A stretch of DNA of 36,672 nt from Bacteroidales bacterium (GTDB lineage: Bacteria; Bacteroidota; Bacteroidia; Bacteroidales; JAADGE01), in assembly GCA_029934515.1 (NCBI GenBank), contig JAOZMB010000015.1:1-36672 (forward strand), written 5' to 3'. Of the stretch, positions 4,031 through 5,956 are shown piece after piece; position 1 is the stretch's first letter, and the number at the start of each line of letters is the position of its first letter. The notes beneath the pieces were generated by a model. The model made no database searches and was not told where the DNA came from. It saw nothing but the letters and a program-made list of their open reading frames with translations. Made by a program: the position numbers and the translations under genes.

Positions 4031-5194
4031 ATGGCAGAATCCGAATATATAAATAAAATAATTCAAGGAGTAAATTATGAAGTTCTTGAAAAGTTGCCAG
4101 CAAAATCAGTTGACCTAATTTTTGCAGACCCACCATATAATCTACAATTAAAAAAAGAATTATACAGACCAAACCAAACAAAAGTTGACGGTGTTTTTGA
4201 TAAGTGGGATAAATTTAAATCAATGAAAGCATACGATGAATTTACAAAAAAATGGCTAGCGGCTTGTAAAAGAGTATTAAAAGATAACGGAACAATATGG
4301 GTAATTGGTAGTTATCATAATATTTACAGAGTCGGTGCAATAATGCAAGATCTCGGTTTTTGGTTCTTAAATGACATTCTTTGGATAAAAACAAATCCAA
4401 TGCCTAACTTTATGGGCACAAGATTTAATAATGCTCACGAAACGATGATATGGGCTTCTACAAAAAAAAAAGCTAAATATACTTTTCATTACAAAACAAT
4501 GAAAACATTTAACGGAGATTTACAAATGCGTAGTGATTGGCATATCCCTATTTGTAGTGGAAAAGAAAGAATAAAACATAACGGAGAAAAAGCACATTCT
4601 ACTCAAAAACCAGCAGAATTATTATTAAGAATAATATTATCAACTTCAAATGTTGGAGATACAATTTTAGACCCTTTTTTCGGAAGCGGAACAACAGGAG
4701 CTGTTGCTAAACGGCTACAAAGAAATTTTATAGGAATAGAAAAAGAAAAATTTTATATAGAAATTGCAAATAAAAGAATAGAAAAAATTATACCGTTAGA
4801 AACAGAACTACTAAATTATAAACTTGAAATAAAACCTCCAAAAGTTCCATTTGGTAATTTAATAGAAAAAGGATTTATAAAAATTGGTGAAAACATTTTT
4901 TCTAAAAATAAGCAAAATATAGCAGTAGTAAATGCTAATGCAAGTATTAGTTTAAATGGTTTTGTTGGTTCAATTCATAAAGTTAGTGCAAATATTCTTA
5001 ATAAAAAATCTCATAATGGTTGGAAGTATTGGTATATAAAACGTGAAGATAAATTAATTTTGATTGACGAACTAAGAAATCAATATATTCAAAAATATTT
5101 ATCTGAATATAAAAAAAAAGAAAAAATATTATTTCAAATTCCTGAACAAAAAACAGAATATAAAACAGAAATAAATAACTTCTTGTCAAAATGA
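4031..5194 (+). CDS. DNA adenine-N6 methyltransferase, CcrM/HinfI type with RAMA domain
   Basis: A 387-residue beta-class methyltransferase. The catalytic motif IV (DPPYN, residues 33-37) precedes the SAM-binding motif I (DPFFGSGTTG, 214-223). HSTQKP (189-194) and the surrounding sequence are typical of the HinfI/CcrM group, which modifies the adenine in GANTC. The C-terminal part, about residues 308-368 (GSIHKVSANILN, then NGWKYWYIKRE), looks like the RAMA domain also present at the end of CcrM. No restriction endonuclease gene is adjacent, so it is likely solitary; GANTC specificity is inferred from family resemblance. ATG 4031 is supported by the matching MAESEY start in the vestigial copy at 2648. 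Partial copies of both ends of this gene lie upstream, showing past duplication. Confidence 0.88.
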   Translation: MAESEYINKIIQGVNYEVLEKLPAKSVDLIFADPPYNLQLKKELYRPNQTKVDGVFDKWDKFKSMKAYDEFTKKWLAACKRVLKDNGTIWVIGSYHNIYRVGAIMQDLGFWFLNDILWIKTNPMPNFMGTRFNNAHETMIWASTKKKAKYTFHYKTMKTFNGDLQMRSDWHIPICSGKERIKHNGEKAHSTQKPAELLLRIILSTSNVGDTILDPFFGSGTTGAVAKRLQRNFIGIEKEKFYIEIANKRIEKIIPLETELLNYKLEIKPPKVPFGNLIEKGFIKIGENIFSKNKQNIAVVNANASISLNGFVGSIHKVSANILNKKSHNGWKYWYIKREDKLILIDELRNQYIQKYLSEYKKKEKILFQIPEQKTEYKTEINNFLSK

Positions 5195-5259
5195 ATGAAA
5201 ATATAAAAAGATTTGTAATAAAAGCAATAAAAGACTGGATAGACAAACAAATGAAATAA
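5191..5259 (+). pseudogene. Vestigial 3' end of a DUF5618 gene
   Basis: A 22-codon ORF starts at ATG 5191, overlapping the methyltransferase stop (ATGA), and ends in AIKDWIDKQMK plus stop. The bases from about 5222 to 5269 match 3959-4006, the end of the DUF5618 gene and its downstream A/T run, nearly exactly. It is the tail of a second DUF5618 copy fused to new upstream sequence. Translation into a 22-residue peptide by coupling is possible but unproven. Confidence 0.75.
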
Positions 5260-5318: not shown

Positions 5319-5487
5319 AAAAAGCGTTTAGCTTATTTTCTTGCTTTTCAAAATCTGGTAAATTTTAAAGACAACAAGGAATAAGATGAATGTTCACGCC
5401 AAATGGCGTGGGCTATTCTTATTTGTTGTCGTTGGTTTACCAGAACCTTGAAAAGCGGATAAGAGTTACAGTTCCCACGCTTTTTTT
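5319..5487. repeat. 169-bp imperfect palindromic element (MITE-like or structured RNA)
   Basis: The element folds on itself over its whole length. Ends AAAAAGCGT (5319-5327) and ACGCTTTTT (from 5477) are complementary. Inside them pair GCTTTTCA (5343-5350) with TGAAAAGC (5449-5456), TCTGGTAAA (5354-5362) with TTTACCAGA (5436-5444), GACAACAA (5370-5377) with TTGTTGTC (5423-5430), and ATAAGA (5381-5386) with TCTTAT (5417-5422). The tip is CACGCCA (5395-5401) with TGGCGTG (5404-5410). A seven-T run (5481-5487) follows the right end on the plus strand. No ORF in it is credible. It could be a non-autonomous mobile repeat, or an RNA gene with its own terminator. Confidence 0.7.
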
Positions 5488-5544
5488 ATGTTTAATTTAA
5501 ACATTGCTTTTTGGAGAGTTGGTGGCAAACAATACTTTTCACAT

Positions 5545-5862
5545 ATGAGAAAATTTATTATTTTAGGTATCGTAACACTGTCTTTTACTTTTACTTTACC
5601 TTCATGTATGACAACAAAAACAAGTGTCGGAACATTTAAAGAAAAAAGTGAAAGCACAGGCAGAACTTACACTTTTGACAAAGGGAGACAGATATGGTTG
5701 TTTTGGGGATTTTTACCACTAGGACGAACAGACGTAAGCACACCACCAGACGGAAATTGTCAGATTATAACTAAATATAGACCTCTTGATATTATTATTA
5801 CTGGTGTTACATTTGGGTTTGTAAAAGTTTATTCAATTAAAGTTAAAGCTAAAAAGAAATAA
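5545..5862 (+). CDS. Small lipoprotein, Bor-like
   Basis: A 105-residue protein with a lipoprotein signal: MRKFIILGIV, a hydrophobic stretch, then LPSC with Cys near residue 20. I chose ATG 5545 because the longer frame from 5488 would put 19 unrelated residues before this signal and begins at the edge of the palindromic element. The mature part has FWGFLPLGRTDVSTPP, then a segment resembling the end of the Bor lipoprotein family (GVTFGFVKVYSIKV beside Bor's glycine/aromatic/TP pattern). Bor-type lipoproteins are outer-membrane proteins linked in phage lambda to serum resistance; a similar role here is not implied. It is monocistronic, just downstream of the palindrome. Confidence 0.55.
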   Translation: MRKFIILGIVTLSFTFTLPSCMTTKTSVGTFKEKSESTGRTYTFDKGRQIWLFWGFLPLGRTDVSTPPDGNCQIITKYRPLDIIITGVTFGFVKVYSIKVKAKKK

Positions 5863-5956
5863 ATTATTAATTTTCAATGAATTTAACAACATCTTTCTCT
5901 TTTAACTAAATTGCAGATTAAATAAGATTTATTCTTTTTATTTATCTGCTTTTTTA

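Follow-up and report, generated by a model that had tools for sequence, protein, structure and literature searches.

A near-palindromic element widespread in Bacteroidota with the features of a leader RNA and two predicted alternative folds

Background

What is the role of a near-palindrome of 169 nt that stands between a DNA methylase gene and a small lipoprotein-like gene in a Bacteroidales genome? The sequence lies at positions 5319–5487 of the window, by which we mean the whole stretch of DNA that was analysed (36,672 nt of contig JAOZMB010000015.1). An initial annotation had described complementary arms running in order to a GC-rich tip, A- and T-runs at the ends and a strong folding potential, and proposed either a MITE-type mobile repeat or a new structured RNA. 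It pointed to blastn against the own and other genomes, an Rfam search, covariation analysis and an inspection of the flanks for target-site duplications as suitable checks. To our knowledge, few cis-acting regulatory RNAs particular to Bacteroidota have been recognized.

Results

The near-palindrome is present as described: its arms pair in sequence up to the GC-rich tip, and its ends are A-rich and T-rich. The folding is indeed strong, the segment 5310–5495 reaching -65 kcal/mol against a mean of -33.6 kcal/mol (sd 3.5) for 200 dinucleotide shuffles, none of which equalled it (z -8.9). Upstream lies an ORF for a 387 amino acid DNA methylase (4031–5194), with Pfam N6_N4_Mtase and RAMA domains, which ends 124 nt before the palindrome. 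Overlapping the methylase gene at its end is a 22-codon ORF (5191–5259) that, as judged by eye, may be a remnant of a following gene. Behind the element is the gene for a small lipoprotein-like protein (5545–5862, + strand), its start being taken from relatives while the mechanically called ORF begins at 5488; a Pfam search with this whole ORF gave no match. After it comes a hairpin with a T-run (5913–5956, + strand). This terminator-like hairpin has relatives at 97% and 81% in the same genome, and weaker relatives occur near several leader loci of other genomes.

The element is not a single copy. Its own genome holds four, the other three being 78–84% identical to it, and blastn revealed matches in 26 of 99 relatives, with up to eight in one genome. 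An apical-hairpin pattern was found in 111 stretches of named genome records, labelled mostly as Bacteroidales, Flavobacteriia or unclassified Bacteroidetes; a few were labelled Chlorobi/Ignavibacteria or only 'uncultured bacterium'. Zobellia uliginosa and Chryseobacterium gambrini are among these records. A profile search of 163 loci gave 174 hits, which were reduced to 152 non-redundant copies, each covering over 110 model positions and 143 being full length; since copies were found by similarity or by the apical-hairpin pattern, this set is biased towards that motif. Across the phylum Bacteroidota, a covariance model built from 48 copies matched 55 of 395 sampled genomes (E-values up to 1e-4). 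The homologous unit extends past 5319–5487, many relatives also carrying a promoter motif 50–80 nt upstream and sharing a downstream segment that pairs with the 3' arm of the element. Some loci (L042, L050 and L041) hold two or three leader copies in series, those of L042 (1250–1417 and 2375–2542) each standing ahead of a similar ORF. No known Rfam family fits: with Rfam 15 the window gave no match at gathering score, and weak, chance-level matches only at a relaxed E-value, and 20 other loci gave nothing but a tRNA at gathering score.

The core of the leader RNA (5319–5487, + strand), as supported by the fold score, the four own-genome copies and covariation, is a rod comprising stems P1–P6, together with a terminal U-run. 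In an alignment of 109 copies that was itself fitted to the rod, 96.1% of the pairs were standard and the covariation score was 0.703, against 0.060–0.091 with slid partners. RNAalifold, applied to an unfitted alignment of 48 copies, showed both-sided changes in 24 of 34 pairs. Four doubtful matches were then taken out of the 109 rows (leaving 105; covariation scores), as was one truncated copy (leaving 104; swap tests). Stems P2 (model positions 24–31:130–137), P3 (35–40:120–125) and P4 (51–57:106–112) vary freely with compensation, and conserved unpaired stretches lie between the varying stems. In the window copy, where they also pair, the 5' sides of P2, P3 and P4 are at 5340–5351, 5354–5363 and 5370–5377 (+ strand), with partners at about 5449–5459, 5434–5444 and 5423–5430, respectively. 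P1 has been rebuilt in some copies (AAAGGCG/CGCCTTT in L161; CAGCG/CGCTG in L058 and L061). The apical hairpin P6 (5392–5413, + strand; GTTCACGCC/GGCGTGGGC) is near-invariant, with 98–100% standard pairs in 105 copies and a conserved pair that is U-G in 76 of them. In the same 105 copies 362 G-U pairs were counted against 33 A-C mismatches, an excess which argues that the sense strand works as RNA. The element is a real structure, formed most likely by the RNA of the sense strand.

From its sequence, the element also looks built to fold in a second way, exclusive of the first, in which four strands (model positions 4–25, 56–77, 86–106 and 137–158) would pair as 1:2 and 3:4 to give hairpins A and T. 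In the window, all on the + strand, the predicted 5' arm of A is strand 1 (5322–5343), whose rod partner is strand 4, and its 3' arm is strand 2 (5375–5395), which pairs with strand 3 in the rod; both sets of limits were read by eye. Swap tests and half folding place the 5' arm of T, the putative terminator, at strand 3 (5405–5423) and its 3' arm at strand 4 (5457–5480), which is also the partner of P1 and P7. A U-run (5481–5487) follows.

The swap tests, which are alignment-free, compare the duplex energy within a copy with that of swaps between copies. For 104 copies, with permutations and shuffles that leave shared ancestry in, z was -14.2 for 1:2 and -11.2 for 3:4, against +1.3 and +1.1 for the control pairings 1:3 and 2:4; the rod pairings co-varied weakly (2:3, z -1.9; 1:4, z -1.0). 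In 31 copies thinned to less than 72% identity the values were -8.6 (1:2) and -8.4 (3:4), and sub-regions of both pairings beat all 2000 permutations in 22 Flavobacteriia-like and 82 other copies separately. Folded alone, the 5' half always gives hairpin A (104 of 104 copies), whereas the 3' half gives hairpin T in 103 of the 104, with at least six U among the eight nt after T in 89. By eye, hairpin A reads GCGTTAGCTTTTATTCTTG/CAAGAATAATAAGTATGACGC in L053 and GCGTTTAGCTTTTGATTTAG/CTAATATCAAAACTAAGACGC in L102, and the inner stem of T reads TTGTT/AACAA in L042, CTCT/AGAG in L164 and CTATAC/GTATAG in L167. The pairing P7, between strand 4 and a segment just before the gene (5512–5523 in the window, + strand), also stood out in the swap test (own -8.36, swapped -6.68; 0 of 2000 permutations; n=104).

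Fixed alignment columns lend hairpins A and T scant support, hence our reliance on the alignment-free tests. Given sequence-only half alignments (57 of 60 rows, L026, L181 and L023 being left out), RNAalifold missed hairpin A altogether and found no more of T than its outer 8 bp, and sub-alignments of the model-fitted alignment gave little support for either hairpin. In our opinion, this poor recovery is due to register slips between lineages. A contiguous-complement test of the inner T stem (94–98 versus 140–152) was negative, 57 of 104 copies matching with their own partner compared with a swapped mean of 63.5. On average the rod is about 15 kcal/mol more stable than A and T together, so that a kinetic or factor-driven choice between the folds would be required.

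The position of the copies was examined next to promoters and genes. TAnnTTTG is given as the Bacteroidota promoter motif in the available text of PMC7366714. In 45 of 103 copies it starts 50–80 nt upstream, where the Markov expectation is 2.9 on average and 10 at most. Downstream, 135 of the 152 copies are followed at a median distance of 52 nt by an ORF of at least 60 amino acids that opens with ATG; its start falls 40–59 nt after the element in 56 of these and 0–19 nt after it in 24. For 123 copies the flanks reach 400 nt or more on either side; in 118 of them a sense ORF begins no more than 250 nt downstream, and in 23 a divergent ORF begins no more than 250 nt upstream. The arrangement of a promoter upstream and a same-strand gene start downstream is enriched, not universal, and the window copy has no consensus promoter at the usual place. 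It also has no upstream mini-ORF there. Such a mini-ORF (ATGNNNTAR) occurs within 60 nt upstream of 64 of 143 copies, against a Markov mean of 11.7 and 13 and 10 in control windows; in loci among L001–L163 it consists of two codons about 16–56 nt upstream, ATG ACA TAA being the commonest form. As a universal part of the element this Met-X-stop reading frame was rejected, being mostly missing in Flavobacteriia copies. That the element serves as a leader in some form appears very likely.

The leader precedes many unrelated genes, often exported ones. From 135 downstream and 133 upstream ORFs, 129 and 126 proteins, respectively, were kept after removal of repeats and of a few sequences that were doubtful or very long. 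No Pfam family is represented in more than six of the 129 downstream proteins, and Pfam results for 10 chosen ones were nearly empty. By a crude rule of our own, exported-protein-like N-termini were assigned to 82 of 135 downstream ORFs; among the other ORFs in these loci the figure was 114 of 423. Lipobox-like sequences were seen in 36 and 26, respectively. Anti-phage cargo was considered as a common theme and dismissed, PADLOC results for the 129 proteins being scattered, with at most three members per model. At five loci (L030, L032, L043, L142 and L148) the signal peptides of unrelated lipoproteins resemble one another (pattern near ISFTGC). Homology stops near this pattern, as if leader and signal peptide had been reused with new mature proteins. 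In Flavobacteriia (L119, L129, L163, L123, L082 and others) leaders stand ahead of a family of proteins of about 300 amino acids with an 'RYW.F'-like start, in which Pfam finds nothing or a zinc ribbon only.

Leaders may be closely related where their surroundings are not. In a genome from a different family of the same order, one leader shares 93% identity with that of the window, the DnaK proteins of the two genomes being 84% identical. When these loci were compared over 1.1–1.5 kb on either side, homology was confined to the element with about 70 nt ahead of it and 45 nt behind it, and the ORFs behind the leaders differ. Being present before different genes, the leader is modular. In Flavobacteriia its cargo lies next to mobilization genes: homology that spans relaxase-like and ParA-like genes frequently stops at the 3' boundary of the element, beyond which the cargo differs. 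The genes immediately upstream (n=126, counted without a control set) include 12 of ParA type, five resolvases, four RteC and three phage integrases. In Chryseobacterium gambrini (L067) a tRNA gene is located about 1.5 kb upstream of the element, with a recombinase-like ORF, so named by eye, between the two. Carriage by phages or plasmids was discarded as an explanation, neither a pattern scan of viral contigs nor blastn having given a match, the window copy serving as query against both plasmids and phages and one Flavobacteriia copy against plasmids.

Discussion

We propose, with moderate confidence, that the element is a bistable transcription attenuator in the leaders of accessory genes, often of exported or mobile-element cargo. 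The proposal is supported by the co-evolution of P2–P4, 1:2 and 3:4, by the sense-strand signal, and by the enriched promoter motif upstream and the gene start downstream. As 5' leader RNA of the next gene, the element would fold either as the long rod (1:4, 2:3 and P2–P4) or as the two hairpins A (1:2) and T (3:4). The U-run after hairpin T makes 3:4 look like an intrinsic terminator and the rod like an antiterminator: T would release RNA polymerase ahead of the gene, and the rod, by separating strand 3 from strand 4, would let it pass. After read-through, strand 4 could form P7 with the stretch just ahead of the start codon. Some signal, perhaps a protein, a small molecule, the state of the ribosome or a trans RNA, would set the balance between the folds. 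More tentatively, the leader could be a gene-independent, horizontally shared 'plug-in' RNA switch, that is, a phylum-wide attenuator through which one common cellular signal acts on acquired genes of the cell envelope and on mobile-element cargo.

A rival reading is translational: the leader would be an orphan riboswitch or would bind a protein, and P7, or the helix next to the start codon, would control the access of ribosomes. Co-evolution links P7 to the segment ahead of the start codon, the start codon of Flavobacteriia copies is often only 0–13 nt past the U-run, and unpaired stretches are conserved between the varying stems. Purely translational control, however, needs neither the co-evolution of T nor a U-run, which is kept even where the base of the hairpin has been rebuilt, and the genes concerned share no pathway; we think this reading rather unlikely. 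Lower still we place an action at the DNA level, in which a single-strand hairpin would serve as recombination site or as a single-strand replication origin or promoter for integrated mobile elements. The mobilization genes nearby in Flavobacteriia, the homology that often stops at the 3' boundary of the element and the modular exchange of genes behind one leader speak for it. Against it are the G-U bias of the sense strand, the promoter upstream, the fixed distance from the element to a start codon, the terminator-like U-run, and the lack of plasmid, phage and viral-contig matches. Integron attC sites carry paired RYYYAAC/GTTRRRY boxes at their ends; none were seen by eye at the ends of our alignment.

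A MITE or REP-like repeat, or simply a long terminator of the upstream gene, would likewise be multi-copy and palindromic with a T-run at its end, yet we regard it as very improbable. Copies are strongly oriented to the downstream gene, a promoter motif separates the upstream gene from the element, and 39 of 133 upstream neighbours are encoded on the other strand. The flanks show no signal of target-site duplication: the longest direct repeats at the ends of 104 copies average 2.43 nt against 2.63 nt after shuffling, and reach at least 6 nt in two. The stems, moreover, vary in a compensated way, which is unlike recent transposed copies. Of the two proposals in the initial annotation, the mobile repeat is therefore not borne out, and the new structured RNA is, by an element that is multi-copy, phylum-wide and covarying, with wobble pairs on the sense strand and no match in Rfam.

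Roughly every seventh genome sampled from the phylum carries the element, often in several copies, and no single pathway stands behind it. Should it prove to be a switch, identifying its signal would reveal how exported and mobile cargo genes are controlled in common, and mutational tests are easily planned around the alternative pairings that co-evolve.

Two sets of sequences invite comparison within the phylum. According to the available text of PMC9723704, the Flavo-1 RNA motif of Rfam is widespread in Flavobacteriaceae, of unknown function and seen near 5' regions, its matches occurring sense or antisense indistinctly. By this account our element differs in being oriented, and neither the window nor the 20 other loci had an Rfam match to it at gathering score. 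The portion of PMC8040213 available describes four palindromic candidates found mostly or entirely in Bacteroidetes (HMP2_4205, HMP2_1065, HMP2_1032 and HMP2_4078), of 80–132 bp with TPR, RuvA, TonB or phage-domain neighbours, the first three being predicted terminators. Compared by these descriptions, they are unlike the element in length and neighbours. Within the texts available, our literature search found no description of the element, and we regard it as a copy of what is probably a previously unlisted family of Bacteroidota leader RNAs, a new class to which some of the HMP2 candidates might conceivably belong.

Riboswitches with a terminator as expression platform combine conserved unpaired stretches between covarying stems with a competing terminator. 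The element resembles them in both respects, the terminator being putative here, and differs in that the genes behind it are unrelated and that no ligand is known for it. The leader of the trp operon is the classical 1-2-3-4 attenuator, with exclusive pairings 1:2, 2:3 and 3:4, the last followed by a U-run. Unlike it, the element has no leader peptide with control codons and is tied to no single pathway; a long covarying rod lies between its strands, and strand 1 pairs with strand 4 as well. What the two would have in common are the mutually exclusive pairings 1:2, 2:3 and 3:4, with a U-run after the last.
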